From Mactra quadrangularis (lineage: Eukaryota > Mollusca > Bivalvia > Venerida > Mactridae), in NCBI GenBank assembly GCA_025267735.1, contig CM046307.1, forward strand, positions 310,001 through 374,000: a DNA stretch of 64,000 nt. The letters are read 5' to 3'. Shown in pieces: positions 11,501-49,720 of the stretch (position 1 is its first letter; every line of letters starts with the position of its first letter). A program made the translations under genes and the position numbers. The notes below the pieces were generated by a model, which saw nothing but the letters and a program-made list of their open reading frames with translations, did not search any database and was not told the origin of the DNA.

Positions 11501-14500
11501 CATTTTATGACATCATCAGGCGCGTAGCTACCAGTACGCAGAGTTCGCAGCTGCGTACACATTGGTCCAGAAAATCGTAAAAAGGGAACGTCAAAAATGC
11601 AATAAAACTTAGGTCTGGAGGGGGGCGGGGGTAGGGGTGTATGAAACAAAAATGAGTTTTTTTTTCGCAAAATATCTATGTGAAAATAACTCTACACGAA
11701 TTAGTTGAATAATTAAAACAACAGCTAGTATGACGCTTTTTATCAATTTTAATTCATAAAACTATAAAGCAGCGTTATTTTTGAAACAGATTGGTAAAAC
11801 AAAGTATACCATAAGTACAATCAACCAATGCGAGCGCTCAAAACGCAATGATATTTATTCGCCGCTACATTCATGAATTTGTAATACATTTTCTTCTAAA
11901 AAAATGACCGAGTTTCATAGAAAATGGTCGTTGAGGTAGTGTTTTTGGTGTTGATGTTGATGGTGGTGATAAGAATGGATGTGATACAATATTATACAGA
12001 CTCGAACACAGCTTGAAAAGTCATATTGGACTCACCTATCGGCTCGTCCAATATGGCTTTTCAAGCTGTGTACTCGTCCAAATATATCTCCATATTGTAC
12101 CGTAAACTGTATAATAACCTATAATTCTACTTCTTCATTAAACTTGATACAAAGATACGAGTAACGGCTAATAATAACGTCTTCTATTATCAATTTGTTT
12201 TAAGGTTACACTACAATGGTCCGTATTACAAAGATTTAATTAAGATTTTGTCCTTAATCATTCTATATTATTTTGTTGTATTATGAAACCAATTTTGATG
12301 ATATGCTGCCCAGATGTGGATCGAGTATACATGATAAAAGTATTTCACGACCCTTCCCTGTTGAATTCTAAAGACAATCAAATAGGGAATGGCAGCTTTG
12401 TAGATTTCCATATCTGAATTACATTATTTATTAATTGATTGGTTAATTAATTAGTCAACAATCAAACTCTTAATAGGGGATCTTCTAACTATTACGATAT
12501 TAATATATGAATTCAATAATTTATATTGGGGTTGTACACCAATCATCCTAGACAGATACGATGTATGGATTAAATAACTATAATATATTTAAAATGTAAT
12601 ACAGTAGATCTCAGATAAGCTTATTTTGTGAATCGTTGAACTCTATTCTTCTACGTTATCATATTTCATTGTTTCCTAAATAAATGTTCAACACCAATTA
12701 TGTAAATAGTCCTAAAACAATACTTTATATATTACAAATTCATCAAACTTGTTACAAAGATAACGACGATCAATTGTTTTTAATGGTAATTAAGTTTTGA
12801 AGTTACTGTACAGGGGCCCATATTATAATACGTTTTACGAAAGATTTTATTCCTTAATCATTCTATATTGTTCTGATGTAGTATGAAAATTATTTTGATT
12901 TTATGTTGACCAGATCATGCAGATCGAGTCTATATTAACGTGTTATACGACACTTTCCTTCAAATCAACTTTATAAACAAAATTATATTACGTTTGACAA
13001 CTAAATATCGAACCTGATATGAGTTATATCGGGAAAACTTTCAAAATTTGACCCATTTAGGCCTCAAAACTGCAACTTTCAAGGGTGAGAGGGTCACAGC
13101 CCGGGGTCTGCACTTAATGTATTCATATGGAGCGAAAGAAACGATGTTAAATGTATTTATTATTGGCTTAATGTAAAGATGTTCATTGGAGCGTTTAGCA
13201 CGTTTTTCATGTGACATTGGTGTAGGTTTGAAAGTATTGAGTTTTGAAAACTCATTCGAGCATCGGACAGGACAAAGGACAAAGGAAACATCGTTAATAC
13301 TTTTATCATACTAACCACCCTCCCATCCTCTTCCTTTTTATTTTGTTTCTGTAATGTCTTTGAAATAAAATTATCATGGTTTTTTATCTCTTGCAGATAT
13401 GACTTTTTGTATAGTCACGTTTGGATGAGTAATATCGTTATGATTGTGTTTTTGTGAGAGGGATCTCTTTTCTGTATTGTATTATATTTTAGAAATAATC
13501 ATGTTCTTTATCTTTCGCAGATATGACTTCTTGTATAGTCATTTTAATGCTAGGTTAAAAAGGGAATAGTGGTTCTGGACACTTTTTTACGGAAAAATTA
13601 TTCTCCACACAAAATGTAATAGGACACTGATGCCGATGTTATAGCGTCAATATTTTTTTCAGGAGCCATTGTTTAAGTGCGAAAAAGCTTTTTGAATTAA
13701 ATGTAACAGAACTGAATGAAATAAACCGTACCTGTCCGGGCATACCTATTTATGAGTTTGTTATTTTCTTGAAATGATAATTGAAAATAAATAATCTATG
13801 TTTGGCCTGAAATGATTTGAAGAGAAAACCTATACACAAAATTAGTTAGTCAGACACTTTCTTGTTAAATTTCTCTGTACAAGTAATTGTCGAGGGAATG
13901 ACAGTTTTGGACATTTCTTATGTCCAACTTAAAAATTGGTTTCATTCTGTAAGTATGCGATATACGCTGTGTTTGGTAAAGTATTGCATGATTGTTTAAA
14001 CTTACTACTGATCGAGGGGTCGTGGGTTCCATTCCCGGGCGGGGCATACTTTCGTGGATCTTAGTCATGAAATTATTTTTACGGCCATTCTCCCTCCTAC
14101 CGATGATTTTTAATTATGTAGGGCAGTTGTCAGTCACTGACGAAAGTATGTGCTTAGTAGTTAGTTAACAGCTAAATTAAGAGATTTAGCCTTTCCAGGA
14201 GGAGTGAGTAAATTGATTGACGGTCGTATATGTCCTATACAATGAGTTGCTACGGCATTAAACCAAACAAACAAACAATGCATCCTTGAAAATCCCGTAT
14301 CTTTCACCTCAACACACATTGCATTCGGAACATCCTCGGCCATTCGCTACGAATAACCTCGGACATATTTAGGCGCCATTTTGAAACTATGTAAACAAGT
14401 ACACGATCGTACAGGTCGTCCACGTAAACATTGCGTATATAAACATTGCCGGTTTCACTCATCATCATCATCGGCCTCCGTCCGTCCTTGTACACGATGG

Positions 14501-17500
14501 ATTGCGCACTGTGGTTGTTGAACTTGAGCAACATCTGCAGTGGCTGAATAGATCAATTCTTGAGTGACAGTCTCTGGTGCAGAGATCGCAGATAAATGCA
14601 GAGTCGTTGTTGTTTGTTGATGCCTTTCTTTTCTGTCTCTGAGAGTCTCTTCTTTCTGTTCGACCTTTTTCTGAGCTTTTTACACCAGTTTTGACAGCAT
14701 GCCGCCACTGGCTGCGATCAGATGCTGTAGTTTCCCATGTGTTGAGATCAAATCCGGCTGACATAAGGTCACGCTTGCAGGCGTCTCTGTATCTGAGATA
14801 TGGGCGTCCGACCGGGCGGGTTCCATGCTCTAGCTGTCCGTAGAGTAAGTCATTTGGTATGCGTCCTGTGCCAATTCTTTTGACATGGCCAAGCCATCTA
14901 AGCCGGCGTTCAGTGAGCAACGCTTGGATCGTAACTGTCTTGTCTTTGTTTAGGACATCTGTGTTGGTGACCTTGTCTTTCCATGATATGTTGAGGATTC
15001 TCCGGAGGCATCTCATATGGAAAGAATTGAGTTTGGACTCTTGTCTAGTGTATGTAGTCCAAGTCTCACTTCCATAGAGGAGTGTGCTGATGATGCATGC
15101 TTGGTAGACTCTCAGTTTGGTGTGAAGTGTCAGGTTCTTGTCTCCCACACTCTCCTATTCAGTTTGGACATTACTGTTGAAGCCTTTCCAATGCGGGCAT
15201 AGATCTCGTTGTCAATACTCAAGTTGTCGGAGATGTAGGACCCCAGGTACTTGAAGTTGCTGACAACAGCAAGTGTTGAACCATTTATCGAGATGGTTGG
15301 AGGAATTGGGGTGTCCTGTGCCATCACTCTAGTTTTCTTGATGCTGATGGTCAGTGCGAACTCCTTGCAAGCGTTTGAGAAGTTGTCGAGAAGACTCTGT
15401 AGACCGTCCTGGGTGTGACTTGCGAGGGCAGCATCGTCTGCACTTGAGTTACTTTAGTCTTTGCGCGTAGACGAGCAAGGTTGAAAAGCTTACCATCATG
15501 CCTGGTGTGGATATAGACACCATCGGTACAGTCCTTGAATGCATAGGATAGTAGGAGAGAGAAGAAAATTCCAAAGAGTGTCGGAGCGAGGACACATCCT
15601 TGCTTTACGCCGCTCAGGATGTCGAAGGGCTCTGATGTGTCTCCATCGAAGCTGACTATGCCTTTCATGTTGGTATGGTATGACTCGATAATACTAAGGA
15701 GCTTTGGAAGACAACTAATCCGTTGGAGTAGTTTAAAGAGACCGCTTCGGCTTACGAGGTCGAACGCCTTCGTGAGGTCAACAAAAGCAAGGTAGAGTGG
15801 TTGACGCTGCTCTCGACACTTTTCTTGAAGCTGACGAACAGAGAAGATCATATCTGTTGTTGATCGTCCGGATCTGAAGCCGCATTATGACTCCGGATAT
15901 ACTCGTTCTGCAAGCACCTGAAGTCTGGCTAATGCAACACGAGCGAATACTTTGCCAACTATACTTAGAAGAGAGATTCCACGATAGTTGTTACAATCGC
16001 TTCTATCCCCTTTGTTCTTGTACAGGGTGACTATCTTGGCGTTTCGCATTGCATGGGGACTGCTCCTTTACTCAAGCACAAACAAAGAAGTTGGTGGAGA
16101 TGAGGCACAATGGCGTCTTTTCCCTGCTTGAGAACTTCTGGTGGGATTGAATCTTCACCAGGAGCTTTCCCACTTTTAAGAGCCTTGATAGCTTTTTCAA
16201 TCTCTGTGACAGTTGGTACAGAATCTAGCTCTTCCATCACGTCGAGAACTGGGATGCTGTTGATCGCTTCCTCAGTCACATGATTCTGGTTTGAATACAG
16301 ATCGAGGTAATGTTCAACCCATCTATCCATTTGCTTGTTCTTGTCACAAATAGTGTCTCCGGTTTTAGACTTGAGTGGGGCTGTTTTCTTTACAACCGGA
16401 CCTATGGCCTGTTTGATCCCTTCGTACATGGCCCTGATGTTGCCGTTAAGTGCCGCATTCTCTATGAATGAGCACAGTTGCAGCCAATAGTCGTTGGCAC
16501 ATTTCCTGGCTTTATCTTGACATTTGCCGCTGGCATTCCTCAGAGCGTCCAAGTTTTTCTGGCTTGGGTTGTTCTTGTAGCACAGGTGGGCTTGCCTCTT
16601 AGCACTGATAGCAGGTTCCATAGTTGCAAGGTTGGCATCGAACCAATCGACATTTTCTCGCTCTTTTTTCCCATACGCTTCAATAGCAGACTGGTGGATT
16701 ACAGAACTTAGATAGGTCCATCTTTCTTCTGCTGTTTCGTCAGGTTTTAGAGGGGTTATGTTGCTGATGGAGGTGACGAAGCTCTCTGTTCGCTCTGAAT
16801 CTTCAGTACGGGCAACATCAATCTTTGGGATACCTTTGGTTTTCTTACGGTCTCGTAACCTCTTTGGTTGGTTTGTAATCTTGCTAATGACAAGAGAGTG
16901 GTCAGTGTCACAGTCAGCACTGTGATATGTCCTGGTGTTTTTGGTGGACTGTAGTTGACTTCTTCTGGTGATGATTAGGTCAAGCTGGTGCCATTGATGT
17001 GACCTTGGATGCATCCAGGAGACACGATGTATGTGCTTATTCTCAAAGTAAGTGTTTGTTATGCAGAGATCTCTGGTGCAGCATAGTTCCAGTAGTCTCT
17101 GTCCATTGTCGTTGATCCGCCCTACTCCATGGTGACCTATGCAAGAAGGCCAGTTGTCATGTTCTGCTCCAACCCTTGCATTAAAATCTCCAAGCAGATA
17201 CAGGTTCTCAGTTGCAGGAAGACCATCTAGCAGTTCAGTTAGTTCGCTATAGAACTGGTCTTTAATATCTGACGATGCACTGAGAGTGGGTGGGTAGGCA
17301 GTGATGAGGTTGACTGGTCCATTGCTGGTGTTCAGTCGGAGACGTAGCAAGCGTTCTGTTCCAGGAGAAGGTGGTTCTAGCATCGGTAGAAGTTCTGTCT
17401 TGACTGCAAACCCTACCCCATACTCCCGCTTTTCTTCTTTACTCCTGCCTTGCCAAAAGAATGTGTAGTTCTTCTCTTTGATGCAGCCATTGTCAGCAAG

Positions 17501-26500: not shown

Positions 26501-29500
26501 GAGGAGTTCCGAATGACCCAATCACCCCCACAAAGGTTATTTCCCATTATCGAATCAATTAAAATAGCGATGTGTTACGTTACCGCTGTTAAGAGTATCT
26601 CATTAACCATACAGAACTACTTCAATTCGCAGCTATTATATGAATACATTTTGGAGGTTCGGGTGTGCTTTATTCCAGTCTGATTAAAACCGATCAAAAA
26701 TTGTCCGCTCGCATAATCGCTTAATTTAGATCTGGCCGTTTCCATACGAGGGTCACGTTCAGGTGACCTTTTTATTATAATATTCATGACGACATTGTTA
26801 TGTTAAGTAACTAATTTACATTGTATACGCAATTTGAAATGAGCCGTCAATTCACAGCCTGTGAATAATACTGCTTTCAAATAAGCTTACAAACCATGGT
26901 CTAAAATAGAATTTACGAAATCGAAATGCTATTAAAAGTGTTTCGTCCAGATAAAAACTACGCAATGATTGGTCGACATAAGATCATCTCGACGTGACCC
27001 TCCAATGAGATCCTAGAGATCCTGTACGACAAAGTTCTACATGATATCTGTTTACGGAGATTAGTTTTATTCATACCATAGAATATCGACGGGGGGCCAA
27101 CTTCTACGCCAGGTCCCACATCAGGCATCTCTAAACTAGTGAACATCATTGAACTCATTCAACGTACATGTCAATACAAATCAAATTATTATTACAAAAA
27201 GTACATGTACATGAATTTACAGTCTTAATATCCACGCAAATCTTAAACTTAAACTTCTTTATTTGATTAAACGCCTATTTTTATATTACATAATTATTCA
27301 ATGGCGTTGTACAAAACTTGAAAAAGATAAATTATAACAATAATATTAATAAGCAAGTAAAAACCTTCCACCATAAATACATAATATATATCGTCGGTGC
27401 TCCACGAAAACCGCGTAAGTTGGTTTTGGCTAGTTTTCAGGAGGCGAAAAAAACTTAATATTTAATTGATCAAATGTCCGTTTTTATCCGTTATATGTGC
27501 ATTGTTTTTTATTAAAATACATCTTTAACTTGTGAAACTCGATTTTTCAGTCACTTCAGTAATTGAGCTAAACGGACACTTACGCGATTTTGTCATTAAT
27601 TTTCAAAAAAAATTGCTTTACTCGTTTTTTGAAACACTCGTTTCCGCGATTTTTGATTCAATTTGTTAATAATATAGACTTACGCGTTTTTTTAAATTCT
27701 GTAATATTAAATTGCGTTACCCTATTTAATGGCATTAAAGGCAAATAATTATCTAGAATTATTGTTTTAGTTATCCAAAAATTAGTACGAATGAGTACTA
27801 ATATCTAGGATCTCATATTTTATGAAATCAAGTTTTTTTTAGTATCATCCAACAGCAGTCATACTGGTCTGAAATCTGTTCATTTAAACGCATTTGATAT
27901 AAAAGGACAACAAATGTCATGGGTAATGTAAAATGCGTTTATTGTCTGATTTTTCTCAGCTGTCAAAGCTTGAATAATTTCACAGTGACTGAATGCATTG
28001 TTTTTGTACTGGTGGTCACGAATTTTCATTAAATATATCTTGACTAAACATATCATTCGGCATAAGTATATTTACTCGAGTATAATGCACACTTTTGGAA
28101 ACCGATGAATGTATCATGGCGGTGATTCTAACAAACGCATTCACCGTAAAGTTATTCATGTTTTGACAGTTGAGAAAAAACGAACTATAATTGTTAATGA
28201 AAACTAGAAAACATGTCCATTGAAATAAACTTTAATTGAAATGAACCTCAAACATGTTATAATTTTGACTATGTACATTTATCATGAATACAACAACTTC
28301 CTGCATTGCATTGCATAGAATCGAAACAACACTATTTGAAACAGTACAATATCTAACATGATTATTAAAAAAATATTGTCCAAAAAAGACTAAATAGAAC
28401 GAACTTATCGTTATAACTGGCGCAACAAATACTAGTCGAATTTTGACTATACATGTACATTTATCATGAATACAACAACTTCCTGCATTGCATTGCATAG
28501 AATCGAAACAACACTATTTGAAACAGTACAATATCTAATATGATTATTAAAAAAAATTCTTGTCCAAAAAAAGACTAAATAGAACTTATTGTTATAACTG
28601 GCGCAACAAATACTAGTCAAATGTATTTCAACAAAATATTATGGACAATATATTTCACAATGTCAATATCAGGTGCATTATAAATGCTTTAGTGTATCAT
28701 AAAATGGATGATAGTCTTTGGGAATAACAGCTTTCAACTGCTGTAAGTGCTCATATTTAGATTTTTTTATTTGAATAGGCCCTGTGTATAATGGTGGTAT
28801 CACTTCGCGACCAGTCGGCACTGTTGCATTTCTCCGTTTTGGCAAATCTTTGTATTCGTCGGCATATGAAACCTTGTATTGTATAACCCCGTCGGGCGTG
28901 TACTTAAGACTACGGATATCGGTAACCACAGGGTCACCAACCTTAATACCTGGGCGTATCGTATCATAAAATTTCAAGCAACTGTAATTCTTGAAAAATG
29001 TGTGATCAACGTACTCCACAATAAATGGATGTTGTTCACGTACACTTCTCATGACTTCGACATAGTTTGTAGGAGAATAGATGGGTCTGTTTTTGAGGCG
29101 ACGTTCTATTATACTGTGAGTAGAGTCGACCTCCATTTGCGTGTGCCCCTTCTCCAAAAAGTTTTGTTTTATAACAATATTATAGTGCACGGCTAATTTT
29201 AGTAAAGTATTCGATAAGGTTGCATTACGATTCTGATAACAACATCCATCGCTGAACAAAATAATCTCCTCCACACCTGGCTTGATTAATGTGCCTGTTA
29301 GATAATCATTAATACAGGTTGCAAACGAATTTGCCGTCAGTCCACCTTCACCCTCATGCCAGAAATAACATTTAACATCTTTGGTTCCTAAATCGTACAA
29401 AGTAAAATTATGGGAGGCTAATTTCGTTTTGTAATAAATGGCACTCGCTTCAATTCTTGGAGAGAGTAAAACAGCTTGAACATCCATTGTTATGACTTTA

Positions 29501-32500
29501 ACTTTATCCGATGCTCTCTGTTTTTCATTGTCTTTAAACATACGGGCTTCATTTTTACGTGTTATATGGATATTGTAATTTTCGTCACTTACACTTCCAT
29601 GACTATGCCCAACACAAATGTCGCACTGATCTTTTTTAGGCTTAAACAAAGACAAGTTTTTTTGATCAAATATTCTATTTAAACTCATTCTGCTGATAGA
29701 GTTATATCCGTTGTCGCGACAATGCTTTTCATACACACGCATTAGGTCGGCGAATGAGACAAACACTGGTTCCAGATAAATTTTAAAGGTGGATGCCCTG
29801 CAGTAATGCGATTCCATTTTTGGTAAGGAATCCAAGAAAGCCTCGGCATTCTTCCATTCAGTGCTAATTCTTGTAAGAGGTGGTGTCCGTTTACTCACAG
29901 CTTTTGGTTTAGGTAATCCATTGGAGTCAGTGTTTCTATCTAACCAGTCGTACACCATATGCTCACTAATTCCAAGTGTTGATAAGAAAAAATCTTTGCA
30001 TACCCTTACTTTTCTCTCTCCAATTCTAAAGTGATATATATATGTATATTTTCTCCTTCCTTTCGCTGTGCTGTTCTCCTTACTTGTATTTGGCGCAATA
30101 ATTTCATCTTCATGTGTGCTTCCTCTTGTTTTACTATCGGACTTATCACCTTTCTCTCCATCTGTATTAGAAACAATACTCTCTTCTTCAATTTTTCTTT
30201 TTTTACCTTTGCCAATGCTAGAATTAACTTCGGTTCTACAAACTAGACTAGCGACAAACAAACTCTTCTGATTCCAGTCCATGTTTTGCCAAAACGAGTC
30301 AAATATTTCTTTTCTTAATATGTCACTTATTTCAAAACAACATCTAACCCGCTCACATCTTTTCCCACAACTTCTTTCTCCTTGTATCCTCGCCTTCTTA
30401 TCAACAGAGTATGTCTTTTTACCGTCACTTTCTTTAAGCCCCTTGTATGCCTTACCCTCCATTCTTAGTTTTTTATTTAAGTTTTTCTTCCAATTATCAG
30501 GACTTCCCATTCCTTTCTTTGTTCTTGGGTGTTTCTGCTTTCCATCAGATTGATTAGCTTCTTCAGTTGTTATTTCTACTTCTCGAGCAATATCTAATTC
30601 TTGGGTATTAACTTCACTCATCTTTTCATTGTCGTGATCAGTTGCTATCATGTTCACTGCAAGTGACGTTTCCTTGTCAATTAGGTTATCTTCACCTGTA
30701 TCTATCATTTGATAAGCAACGAATGTTTCGCTGTCATTTGCTTGTACTTCTGTCTTTCTACAACCATTGTTTTGCGATTCTTGAACCTCGCTGTTGCCTG
30801 CACTAGATTGGTGTTCATAATTCTGCTTTCGCTTTCGCTTTGGAACTTTATATGGCTTGTTTGAAATACTTATATCAGAATCGTAATCAGATGAATTAGT
30901 ACACTTATTTCGTTTCCTGTATATCTCTTCTTTCCAATCTGGATCTTTAAATGAATCGTCTGAGTCAAAATAATTACTGCTTACTTCACTTTCACTCGAG
31001 ATATCATTATCACTTTCATTGTTGTGGAGTGATCTATCAACAAAATCTTCTTCGTGATTTGAATGTTTATCGTCATCATCTTTATCATCTCGTAATACAC
31101 TATCTATATTAGTAATTGATGTACCCTGTATTCTATACCTATCTAGACTTGAGACCATTGATTGTTCAATTGCGACATTTGCTCTCTGTGTGTCAATATT
31201 TTTTAAATCTTGTACTGTAGTAGGTAAGACACCGCTTTCGAATTCATCGTCAGAAAAATCTATTTCGATATTGTTGTTGCTATCTACTGTGACAGGCATT
31301 TCCCTTTTACGGATTTTCTCTAAAGCTAATTGAACTAGTTGTTTTCCCCTCGAAGACATTTTCAATTGTCCTGTGTTACTGTTAAAATACGTTTAATTGT
31401 ACAAGCTCTATGTTTAAAAATCAGTTCTTTAATTGCATCCTCTGTCTCGCTCACTTTAAAAGTTACTTGTAAATAGAACATGCAAGGCTTTATGATCGTG
31501 TAACATTGTTGTACAGTCACTTCTATACCTGACAAGTCTAACACATTCAATTTCAAAGTTGAACATATATTCACAGCAGTTGCTGGTTTAATATTATTGT
31601 ATGATAGATATAATTGGTCTAAGCTTTTGCCCTTCGATATAACTTTAAAATCAGCATCCACTAAATTTTTACATTGCGAAATGTTAAGGATCTGAAGGTT
31701 TGGCAAAAATTGTAGGAAACACAATGTTGAAATATTACTTCCAGTGATGTCCAGCCAGTATAGCTTTTTGGCATTTTGTAAGTACTTAACAAACAAGAGG
31801 TCTATTTCGAACACTGCGCATGATATTTGAGCATAAGGTATGAAAAGCTGTTCAATTCCCGAAGAATGTTTTAAAACTCGTTTGAGAACGTCATAATTTG
31901 CTACAAATTCACTTTCAAAATCTATATCCTTCCATAACACACTATTTTGTTCCACTATTACATTTAATAGTTTACAAGTTCTATTCACAGACTGTAGAAG
32001 ATGGCTGGTTGGTATGTCTGAGAGTATTTTAACGATGATTTCTGTAGGCAACGAAAGAAAATGGTGCTCCATTTAATGACATTACATGACTGTATCTACA
32101 AAAAACAAAAACAGTCTAAGAAACTTATTACAGTACTATGTATCTAAAATAGAGGGGCGTCAACCGAAAATGGGTCTTAAAGCGATTGCGATCAGTATGC
32201 AGCCTGCGCATCCGCGCAGCCTATTCATGAACTAATTTAGATCTATCAACGAACATATGGATAAGCAGACTGATCTGGACTCATATTGATCACAACCGCT
32301 TTAAGAACTACTTTCGTTTGATGCAGCTCATTTATTCTAATAATTTATGCAATAGAAAAGCATTAATTTGCCAGACCCATCGGACAATTGATTTGCTATA
32401 ATATTGTACCGCAAATAAGCCTTAATATATCTAAGAAATATCATTCTCTTCGATTATATCATAATTACATGACAAAATATTATATTCGAAAAACGCGTAT

Positions 32501-35500
32501 ATCTTTAGAGGAGCAACCCTCATCCAATGAATGGAAATCGCGTATAACAGTATTCAACTTTTAAACACGACAATCCTTGTTCATTTAACATAAACTATAC
32601 ATCATTCAACAATTCAGTGATAACACAAGGAATTTAGGTTACAATAACCTCGTCGTATTGTCTTACCGAGGAAAAATGGGAGCAAAAATTTGACTGATAC
32701 TGTTTCTTACGGAAGCTAGCGTGTTTTAGGAAGTTAAGAATGCAAATAAATGTATCAACAGTACTTTTTATAACACTTACATAAAACTGCATCAATAATA
32801 AAAGGAAATAACTTACATTTTCCAATAAAATCCTTCGAAAATATTCCACACAAACGTCAGTCTGATTTTAAAAATTATACGCGTTTTTCGCTGATAAAAA
32901 ATATCAACCAATGAATATACAGGATTTCGTCACATGGTCATTAAAACAACATCCTATTGGCTAAAATGTCCAGGATTTTCGCAGAAAACGTAGCATGATC
33001 CCGCTTTTCCAACAGTAAACAAAAGTTTTTTGCGCCAAAATGGACTTACGCGGTTTTCGTAGAGCAGCGACGATATACATTTATAAAACAAATATGCAAT
33101 TAAAACAAAATAAGATTTATCACACATGATGTTATTTAGTATGTTTGCGTATTTTGTGGTTTTTATTGTTTTTATTGACTTTCCGTATTTTAAGTTTATT
33201 GGACCTAAATCATTCACATTTCATGATAAAACCTAATTTTACATTTGTTTTCATTTATTGCTATTGAAATTTGGTGTCCTGAACAGTATAACATGAAGCT
33301 ACTGTTACATGAACAGTAGAACATAACGCCACTGTTAACCAGACATTTCCCTAAACGTGTCGAAACATCACCTTTAAAGGGACCCCTTATTTTAAGCAGT
33401 AATGCAGTCATATAAAACAAGGTATTCAATGACAGAGAGCAAGGCAATCCTAATTCTCATGTCATGATGAATTCACTTAATATATTTACCATTGTATGTT
33501 AAGGCATTAACTAGCCCTGTCAATTTTAGAATAGACCCCAAACATGATAATCTTAGTCTTCGAGTTGTTCATTTTTAGTTTATTTTCATTCATCCATGAA
33601 TTTATTGTTACGGTGCACTCTTCAAGATCAGAAATGGCATTTGCTTCTTCATTCTGATTGTTAGGACAGAATTTTGTATTAGCTTTGTGGTCATCTGCAA
33701 AACCATGCGCTGATATATCAGATGGAATGACATCAAATAAGGATCCTGTATAGGTAAGATAAAGCCATGGACCCAAAAAACTACATTGTGGAACACTACA
33801 ATCTAACGGACGTACAGATGATGAACTAGTATTGACGTTGACTCGACTTGCACGTGGACCAAGATATGAGTCAGTCCAGTGAAGTGTACTGTTCTGTAGG
33901 CCATATCGATCATTAAGTACCAATAAAATGTCATGATCAACAGTGTCAAATGCAGATCAATAGCTTTAACGCAGTAACTTCTAGTTTTTTTTCATACCAC
34001 CCAATAGGTCATTAACTATTCTAAGAAGGGCTGACTCACATGAGTGAAAACGTCTATATACAGACTGATTTTCTGATAGAAGATTATTTTCATCAACATG
34101 AATATTTAATCTATTCCAAGCGGCCTTTTCAATTACCTTAGATAAAAAGGACAAATTACTAACCGGTCTATAGTTAGCATATCCCTGATTCAGACCCACC
34201 TTCTTGATAAGAGGCCTAACAACTGCCTCTTTCCACTTGGATGGGAATACACCATGTTTCAATGAGATATTTATTAAATGCGTAATTAGGGGTAATAATT
34301 CTTGTAGGTAAAATTTTAGCAATTTTGTCGGCAATATGTCTAGCTCAGGTAATTTGGTATTTAAACAGCATATAAGATGTCTGACCTCTTTTATAGTGAA
34401 ATCCTTAGAATGGTCAAGACTAGGTACATCCTTCAGTTGGGGTGAATAAGTTGGAAACTGCATCAAGGATTCTCTAATTTTTGAAATTTTATTTAAGAAA
34501 TAAGCAGCAAAATTTTCTGCTAATGGGAGATCAGAATGACCTTTCGGCATTGGATTCTCAGATCTTACTCCTGTCAATTCAGCAACAAATTTATATAATT
34601 GTTTTGTATCACCTTTAGCACCAAGAACACTTCTTGACTAAGTGATTTGACCTTTTCCTCATTCAATTCATAATGATAACGGTTACGCAACCTTGAAAGC
34701 TTCTAATTGTTCAGGCTTTCCATATTTTCTCCATAATCTTTCTTGTTTTTCATCGTTGAATTTTTAAGTAAAACAAGATTTTCTGTAAACCAGTGTTTGA
34801 AGACCTATGAATCTTTGGGTTTTTTTTCAAAATATTGAAGCATTCTTGTCAAGTTTTGACTACAAATATTTACGCAAGAACCATCATCTTCACAATCGAT
34901 AGTAATGTCTTTAAAATCAGAAGCAAAATTTTCATGATTGATTTCTGTAAATTCCAATACAATGAAGGGCAATATTTTTGAAAATCAATTTCTATATACC
35001 AAATTCAAAGCTTCTTGTATCCCCACTCTTAATTTTATTGATGTAACTTGCAATTCGACTAGTTATTGCTACCCCCCCCCCCACACACACACACTTTATT
35101 TTGTCTGTTGGCTACTGTTAATCTGTACCCATTTTGATTTAGATCAGAGGTTTCGATTAAATGTTTTTTTTATCATCTGAAAACAAAGTTTCTGTCAATA
35201 CAGCAAAATCTATTCTTTCCTTCTTCAGATATTGGCCTATAGCAAACTCTTTGTTAACAGCAGATCTACAAATCAAAGTCAAACAATTTACATTTTCACT
35301 TATCTGACTAACAGTATTACATATTTTGGGGTATATTAAGTTGTTTTTCTTAATGCCTTGGGGAGTTTTAACTGAACTCTTTACAATACATCTGTTTTTC
35401 TTTTGTGATCGGTGGGGAGCTAATTTGAGTGAATTAATAATACCTAATGTAGCTTTGTTTTGTTTGTTTGTTTTTGTTGGGTTTAACGCCGTAGCAACAC

Positions 35501-47269: not shown

Positions 47270-49720
47270 AAATATTAATTTGAGTGGCAGCCTTTTTACA
47301 TATACCCTTTTTTACTACCCTTTCACAAGTTATTGTGGCGTCCTCTACTTTAAAAGAATTATTTTTTGTAAAAGTTTTACCAAGAGCAATAGATTGGAAT
47401 TTTTCGGGGTTCGCTTGCTTTTGTTAATTTTAAACCATTCTAAAAGAACATTACTATCTGATTGTAAAACATTAATAAGTTCATTAAAATTAGAAGAAAA
47501 AAATGAAAGGGTATTGTCATCTGCATAATTATACAAAGTAGACCTTTTAATGAAATAAAAATCATTGATAAAACATGAAAAAGCAGGGGTCCAAGGATGA
47601 ATCCTTGGGGTACACCTTTAGTTATAGTAGCCCAAAAACTAACCGTTTGACCTATCTTAATTTGTTGTTTTCTACCAGACAAATATGATTTAAGTAAGCT
47701 TGAAGCAGACTCTGACAGACCATATGCAGATAACTTAGATAGAAGAATGTCATGTGGTAGGCAGTCAAAGGCCTTAGATAGACCCATTAGAATTGCAGCT
47801 ACATATTGGTTGTTGTCCAGAGCCTGCTTCCAGTCTTCAAGTAATTTCAGTAGAGTGGTTTGGCAACCATGTCCCCTCATGAAAGCACATTAAAAATGAT
47901 TAAAAATAGTATCAAAATGATGTGTAAGTTGTTCAGCAATTATTTTTTCAAATATTTTCGAAATCATTGGTAAAACACTCACTGGTCTATAATTGGATTA
48001 ACAAAGAGAATATTTTTTCTTAAATAGAGGGATAACTTGGGCCAGTTTTAGATTATCTGGGAATGTATTTGTACTTATAGTAATATTGACAAGGTTTGTA
48101 AGTGGTTCAGTCTTCTGACTTTTAACAGTTTAGCAGATATGGTATCAACTCCGGAAGTTTCTTTGAATTTAATAGATTAATTGCTTTGGAAACATCAGAT
48201 ATGTCAACTGTTTAAAATCAAATGTTATAACATGGGGGTTATTTTCTTTAATTTTGTCTAAACTTAGATAGCATTCTGGGTTAAACACATAATCTTTTCC
48301 AAAAGACTCGCTACGTTTGCAAAATATGAATTAAAATTAGAAATTGTTTTGTTGTTCTCATTTAGAACAAGTTTTGTAATTCTGTACATGATTTGTTTGA
48401 TAAAAATGGCTTAATCGTTTCCCAAAAATCTGAAGATTTTGCCCCACCTATACATCTTTCTTGAAAATATTGATTTGCAGATTTATGTTTTATGCTGTTT
48501 ACTAAATTTCTTTGTTTTCTATATTTTTCCCAGTTTTCAGATGTTCTGTATTTTTGGAATTTATGTAATAACATTTTTTTTCAAGTATATGGCTTTGCGT
48601 AGTTTTTGTTCATAAAAGGTAATGGTTTATTTCGTCTATATGACTGCTTAATTCGCGCATGAGTATTAAAAACTTCAGAAATATCAGATTCAAAATTTTC
48701 ATACAGAGAATTTACTAAATTATTATTAGAATAAAATTCATTAACAGGTGGCACTTTAATATTGGACAGGTCAACATTTAATGCATTAACATCAAGATTT
48801 TTAAAACTTCTGTAGTTATTTTTAAGCTTTTAATGCTTCGGTGTCGAGTTGTTGATACCAGTACATATAAGATTATGACAATCACAGATGCCAGATGGAA
48901 AATTTTGAGTCTTCATACATAATGTTTTTGAATTTGTTAAAATTGCGTCAATTAAAGAAGGAGTACAATTTTTCGTAAAACATGTTGGTTTATTAATTAA
49001 ACAGTGCAAATCGAATATTTCATTAAAGTCTAAAAGCTTACGACATTTATCACATAAGAGATCATATTTCAAATCACCAATGATCATGAAGTGGTCAAAT
49101 TTGGTTAAAATAAGATCCGATATTGTGGTTAATTGTTTAAAAAAGTCACCATCTTTCATATTGGGTAGTCTATAAACACACGACATAGCCCATTTTGAAT
49201 TATTCAATATGACCTCATATGATATGTTTTCGAGATATTTAGACTCCAGGTCATTACGGCGACGTGCAGGTATGTCTGCTCTGGTGACGGTTGCTATTCC
49301 TCCTCCTCGACTGTCTCTGTCTCGTCTTTCCAGATTGTAACCTGGTACTTAAAATAAGTCATTGCGAAATGATGAATCAATTTTAGTTTCCGAATTAAAC
49401 AATAGATTTACTAATTTAAGCTCTAAAATCTCATGAAGTTCATTAAATGTATGTCTAATACTATTTATGTTAAGATGAGCAGTTATGAATTTTCTAGGGT
49501 ATTTGTTCCTGAGTTCTTTAAGGTCATTAAAATTAGGTAAAGTATCAGTTTCGGCGTCTGAACAGGCAGAGGACAAAACTGATGTACTAGTTGCTATCTA
49601 GTATACTTTCACCTATATCATAAAAAGATAACATAGTGTCAGAAGTATACTACATGGATTAATTATCAATTCATAACGTAGTTCTAATTGGGATTTGTTT
49701 TTGAAAACACTTTAAAACAG
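47270..49720 (-). pseudogene. LINE remnant with endonuclease and RT pieces
   Basis: Reading from 49576: SSACSDAETDTLPNF, TAHLNINSIRHTFNELHEI (endonuclease start), then CVYRLPNMKDGDFF and FMIIGDLKYDLLC (GDxN motif decayed) at 48830-49207. Then ENWEKYRKQRNLVN at 48362-48574. RT follows: LMGLSKAFDCLPHDILLSKL, TKGVPQGFILGPLLF (47440-47880), then after a frameshift YNYADDNTLSFFSS (YADD catalytic core) at 47345-47536. Frameshifts and stops interrupt it. Its 5' end is joined to an antisense gypsy-gag mosaic. Confidence 0.86.

Follow-up and report, generated by a model that had tools for sequence, protein, structure and literature searches.

What is a gene for an F-box/leucine-rich repeat (LRR) protein doing inside a DNA transposon? 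The question is raised by an element in the genome of the bivalve Mactra quadrangularis, which occupies positions 27391-33073 of the 64-kb stretch of contig CM046307.1 (310,001-374,000) that we analysed; this stretch is called the window, and all coordinates are positions in it. The element has inverted ends of the TCGTCG type and two open reading frames (ORFs) on the minus strand, coding for the F-box/LRR protein (ORF1) and then for a transposase (ORF2). In F-box proteins the F-box binds Skp1, and a second domain brings a substrate to the SCF (Skp1-cullin-F-box) ubiquitin ligase. We find that the predicted F-box protein is an accessory module in at least three deeply separated families of such elements (A, to which the element in the window belongs, B and C) and is absent from sister families. 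Transposons with accessory genes are already known; new here is that the accessory gene, in a DNA transposon of two genes, encodes an F-box/LRR protein. The parts of the element are:

27391-27419, plus strand: left terminal inverted repeat, starting TCGTCG, a start common to families B and C
33045-33073, minus strand: right terminal inverted repeat, finishing CGACGA
27389-27390, unstranded: target duplication (2 bp, TA) on the left, from the flank comparison of 16 copies
33074-33075, unstranded: target duplication (2 bp, TA) on the right, from the same comparison
31362-32072, minus strand: ORF1, F-box/LRR protein of 236 aa, intact
31917-32057, minus strand: F-box region, ORF1 residues 6-52, from the PF12937 match and the Skp2 F-box match of the family profile
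31515-31772, minus strand: LRR region, ORF1 residues 101-186, from column identity; the best-kept region of the family
31357-31364, minus strand: junction TGA-AA-ATG, comprising the ORF1 stop, 2 nt and the ORF2 start
28678-31359, minus strand: ORF2, DDE transposase of 893 aa with DUF7869
29026-29502, minus strand: RNase H-like catalytic core of ORF2, residues 620-778, with D626, D704 and E743/D745
27939-28190, unstranded: nested short inverted-repeat element resembling a miniature inverted-repeat transposable element (MITE), in the 3' non-coding part
28271-28622, unstranded: unit of about 182 bp duplicated in tandem, likewise in the 3' non-coding part

The original prediction had described an intact-looking element with inverted ends, two ORFs and an Asp/Asp/(Asp or Glu) layout, and all of these are present. 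Inverted repeats, a target duplication, an RNase H-like DDE transposase and dispersed copies occur together, and by its looks the element is an autonomous cut-and-paste DNA transposon. The F-box/LRR identity proposed for the upstream ORF also holds: ORF1 matches the F-box domain PF12937 with 33.4 bits (cut-off 24.3), the profile of its family aligns by sequence with the Skp2 F-box, and the predicted structure (mean predicted local distance difference test score 88.8, best of five models) finds its closest folds in FBXL17, FBXL2 and Skp2. In this predicted fold an N-terminal F-box is followed by an LRR arc, the layout of F-box/LRR proteins; in contrast to FBXL2, FBXL17 and Skp2, ORF1 is short (236 aa) and transposon-encoded, and it is 18-19% identical to them in alignments. 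Across 16 sequences of the family the mean pairwise column identity is highest in the LRR (0.54), followed by the F-box (0.46), the linker (0.37) and the C-terminus (0.24). Database relatives of the family number 28 proteins, with the organism named for two of them, an uncharacterised Mercenaria locus and a protein of a Sedimenticola metagenome-assembled genome (MAG). An alignment search of viral contigs with the F-box protein gave 134 pattern matches, none of which was confirmed. Deposits from Sedimenticola MAGs include P0011, a DUF7869 transposase, and P0143, which is an F-box protein of the ORF1 family; Sedimenticola live with bivalves, and host DNA in the MAG bins is therefore likely.

ORF2 matches DUF7869 (PF25273) narrowly, with 26.9 bits against a curated cut-off of 26.0. 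Its catalytic core has a predicted, Mos1-like RNase H fold that places D626, D704 and E743 (with D745 as the alternative to the last) in the expected Asp/Asp/(Asp or Glu) arrangement, and it is preceded by a long N-terminal part rich in acidic residues and serine. A sequence search of the PDB with the transposase returned no match at E-values up to 10. Annotated relatives of the encoded proteins occur in Patella, Mytilus, Gigantopelta, Mya and Mercenaria, with more distant ones in insects and fish. The transposase alignment search of viral contigs gave three matches, none confirmed, and that of bacterial and archaeal genome contigs a single weak locus in a Gemmataceae MAG (L051; 31% over residues 516-632).

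A DNA search of the 979-Mb genome, in which 40 of 2883 candidates were scored and copy counts are hence lower bounds, recovered at least ten coding copies of family A: four of full length at ≥99% identity, five at 94-99% and one old copy at about 88-92%. Full-length copies, for which a search had been suggested, thus number at least four at ≥99% identity in the source genome, and their near-identity suggests recent activity. All ten coding copies retain the F-box sequence, with the F-box frame open in six and the transposase frame in four. In two of them (L004 and L006) the transposase is broken and the F-box open; the reverse state is found in none of the ten and does occur in one family C copy, L049. 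Nothing follows from this pattern, as the copies are too few, and sequence changes among the young copies are uninformative on selection. It had been proposed that copies with the same ends lacking the F-box would speak against the module: none of the ten coding copies found is of this kind, although at least six short deleted derivatives (L011-L016), which have the left end in common with them, contain no coding part at all. All four full-length copies (L001-L004) have the ~182-bp unit in tandem and L005-L009 have it once, which divides the copies into two subfamilies. L008 (C2) and L009 (C1) share an identical internal deletion as well as an identical right flank, and are therefore probably parts of a larger duplicated segment.

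Families B and C emerged from a six-frame genome search with the F-box protein (all 38 candidates scored, E up to 1e-3), which gave 23 matches in 21 loci. Ten of these loci are the family A copies; among the 11 others (L040-L050) a homologous transposase lies downstream on the same strand in ten. Overall a transposase adjoins the F-box in 20 of the 21 loci, the exception being L047, a truncated family B copy, and no F-box relative was found outside such elements in this genome-wide search. Family B comprises L040, L043, L048 and the truncated L047, which has no transposase; a piece of its transposase matches PF25273 with 26 bits (cut-off 26). Family C comprises L041, L042, L044, L045 and L049 together with the more decayed L046 and L050. 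Over some 4.94 kb, four of its copies match L042 at ≥99% identity, and both frames are open in L041, L042, L044 and L045, while the F-box of L049 bears a one-base insertion. Both families have TCGTCG ends and 2-bp duplications of their own. As two distant families carry the same gene pair, the F-box gene looks like a kept, working part of the element.

Comparison of the three families points the same way. Their F-box proteins share 37-41% of residues (A against C 37%), with an identity between families of 0.59-0.65 at codon position 2 and 0.38-0.39 at position 3; identical four-fold sites number 7/27, 9/26 and 12/22, the last and highest being A-C. That the residues are kept while third positions are 38-39% identical indicates purifying selection over a long time, and we read the third positions as near saturation and the F-box protein as held by selection. 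Purifying selection on the F-box ORF had been suggested as a check, and the measure used here is a between-family comparison of codon positions. The transposase of family C is 28% identical to that of family A; it aligns over 542 columns (E 2e-60) and to the transposase family profile, although PF25273 gives no match to it at E-values up to 0.1. A quick, unrooted transposase tree with 55 rows, among them 52 of the 120 relatives listed, places it on the A/B side and outside a set of 29 rows to which the fish and insect sequences belong; its end branch, at 5.7 changes per site, carries a flag for being long and unsure. The F-box tree (28 rows) has no flagged end branch and a mostly unresolved backbone. 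Two histories are compatible with these data: transfer of the F-box module between transposase lineages, or an old module that evolves more slowly than the transposase and was lost in places.

Relatives of the element that do without the F-box were recovered with the transposase as query (51 of 538 candidates scored), the 71 matches being grouped by position into 41 loci. An F-box match lies within 10 kb at 13 of these, all of families A and B, and at none of the remaining 28, which weighs against a strict requirement; the seven transposase-bearing family C loci did not appear in this search, and some of the 28 are fragments. For four of the 28, representing three families at 33, 46 and 52-53% identity, we read the upstream DNA (814-1920 bases before the transposase); L053 and L054 belong to one family and are 98% identical over 697 upstream bases. 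None of the four pieces contains an F-box frame, the best score being 5.0 bits (lowest E 0.055) as against 148-314 bits in eight F-box controls. In two of the four pieces a TCGTCG preceded by TA stands 0.77-0.79 kb before the transposase start, against an expectation of 0.15-0.19 such words for each piece; a second TCGTCG occurs elsewhere in one of them, and the remaining two pieces have none. For family D, which has no F-box, two small pieces were searched and showed no right end. Hence the same kind of element, as far as these sequences go, exists without an F-box, which is optional; this argues against a necessary catalytic role and for an accessory one. Being present in at least three families and absent from their sisters, the module is gained, lost or exchanged as a unit.

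We scored the flanks of 16 copies in which both TCGTCG termini could be placed (eight of family A, two of B and six of C); L008, L010, L046, L047 and L048, with one or both ends not found, were left out. The flanking dinucleotides are equal in 14 of the 16 copies, across all three families, and the flanking 4 bp in just two, so the target duplication is 2 bp long. Mismatches are confined to L005, whose right end is altered, and L045, whose left end is changed and which agrees after a one-base shift of the boundary. Of the TATA noted earlier at both flanks of the element, the TA on each side is thus a genuine 2-bp duplication, and the reading as a 4-bp TATA duplication is rejected. Sola elements make a 4-bp duplication, to be compared with the two of 16 copies in which 4 bp agree here. 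The target duplication of Tc1/mariner is TA; here the copies have TT, AA, CA and CT in addition to TA, so that Tc1/mariner is rejected, the catalytic fold alone being Mos1-like. Kolobok elements, defined by TTAA target duplications and RR...YY ends (PMC9587614), are ruled out by the 2-bp duplication and the TCGTCG...CGACGA ends.

The manner in which the two ORFs abut bears on how both proteins could be made. They are separated by a 2-nt gap in family A and overlap by 4 nt in B and 14 nt in C, with frame offsets of 2, 2 and 1 modulo 3. As the offset differs among families, a shared frameshift fusing the F-box to the transposase is rejected; leaky scanning is likewise unlikely, as a ribosome would have to pass 14 (A), 11 (B) or 9 (C) ATGs, counting that of the F-box, to reach the transposase start. 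ORF2 is probably translated by termination and reinitiation at the junction. A different solution would be that splicing or a frameshift joins the F-box to the transposase, or that an alternative 3' splice site drops the F-box from a second mRNA. The splice-acceptor-like stretch tctctatttatttacag directly before the transposase ATG in family B, and the CAG motifs of family A, whose ends lie 11 and 19 nt upstream of it, are in keeping with this; against it stand the differing offsets, as far as a shared frameshift is concerned, and the motif SRGxxxxxLAL, which follows the transposase ATG in A and B and is also present in the F-box-less families. We therefore regard it as improbable, though an alternative splice that drops the F-box may still occur.

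The predicted fold and the apparent retention of the F-box module are supported by the above comparisons, and we think it fairly probable that ORF1, as a transposon gene kept in several lineages, encodes a substrate adaptor for SCF and turns host ubiquitination to the advantage of the element. Its F-box would bind host Skp1, and a substrate held by the short LRR domain would be ubiquitinated by the host SCF ligase and then degraded; its removal would profit the element. The most likely substrate would be a conserved host protein that limits transposition, such as a silencing, repair or checkpoint factor. The function put forward in the original prediction, control of the turnover of the transposase, a host repressor or a repair factor, would be a reasonable one. 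Such a target is favoured because the LRR is kept across families whose transposases share 28%; with a fast-changing host target or the transposase as target the LRR should vary, and it is instead the best-kept region. Viruses and bacterial effectors are known to employ ubiquitin-ligase adaptors, and more tentatively one might see in the F-box gene a portable counter-defence module, held in a coupled slot and passed between far-diverged lineages, that removes a conserved host restrainer of transposition. Alternatively, the F-box protein might send its own transposase to SCF, as a copy-number brake produced from the same mRNA. The coupling of the ORFs by overlap or a 2-nt gap in three families would suit such self-limitation, and the acidic, serine-rich N-terminal part of the transposase could hold a degron; nevertheless, a variable ligand is hard to reconcile with an F-box protein that is better kept between A and C (37%) than the transposase (28%), and best of all in the LRR, and the sister families do without the brake. 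We consider this unlikely.

An adaptor function may also be set against a role in which the protein binds Skp1 and acts without degradation, for instance as an architectural or chromatin-docking subunit. The fold alone does not decide this point, but the best matches, FBXL17, FBXL2 and Skp2, are SCF adaptors, and such a role appears quite improbable. The original prediction itself had raised a captured host gene riding along, and had looked to a single-copy host F-box gene with introns outside the ends as its sign. Transposons do pick up host genes, and some sister families lack the F-box, as might be expected of a passenger without use; yet both ORFs recur, with order and junction preserved, in three far-diverged families whose third positions are 38-39% identical, and the 21 loci include no F-box relative outside such elements, the one locus not beside a transposase being the truncated family B copy. 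A passenger is thus highly improbable, and we retain the SCF adaptor as the preferred reading.

In the open-licence literature (subscription journals, Repbase reports and supplements lying outside this scope) we found no DNA transposon with an F-box gene of its own and no mention of DUF7869. The nearest parallels are the following. Fungal DNA transposons encode TET/JBP enzymes, with the gene passed between lineages and thought to aid escape from silencing (PMC12730594); like the F-box gene, this accessory gene is carried by several DNA transposon lineages and has moved between them, but it encodes a 5-methylcytosine dioxygenase rather than a ubiquitin-ligase adaptor, in fungi and in other transposon lineages. 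Kolobok lineages, including the bivalve KolobokP, similarly combine a DDE transposase with a lineage-specific second protein and are rich in bivalves (PMC9587614); they differ in their duplications (TTAA, or 3-5 bp in KolobokP solo repeats), their ends and their accessories (nuclease, helicase, KolX), and the term F-box is absent from that text. In Caenorhabditis and zebrafish F-box and DNA-transposon domains also meet, but in the opposite direction, host F-box genes having captured transposon domains into one polypeptide (PMC12062965), with no mobile, separate F-box gene. The VANDAL transposons of Arabidopsis encode VANC proteins, a second protein that likewise counters host control (PMC5735166, PMC10398659), but by sequence-specific anti-silencing, and the abstract openings hold no link to ubiquitin ligases. 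If the proposed adaptor function is true, animal transposable elements would, like viruses, resist their hosts by having proteins destroyed, and the LRR ligand should be a host factor limiting transposition, offering a handle on an unknown restriction factor. The overlapping ORFs in addition allow coupled translation to be put to the test in a eukaryotic transposon.

Other repeats lie within and around the element. The MITE-like unit at 27939-28190 (about 250 bp, with inverted ends) is matched, at about 548-803 of the query, in 18 other places of the genome at 86-91%. The leader upstream of the F-box ORF holds a further short inverted-repeat unit at 32152-32329, with 48-nt arms that are 79% complementary. 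Elsewhere in the window, ORF pieces resembling reverse transcriptase or endonuclease at 14468-17383, 33981-34550 and 47440-47880 look by eye like remnants of long interspersed nuclear elements, the first of them in a stretch of higher G+C.
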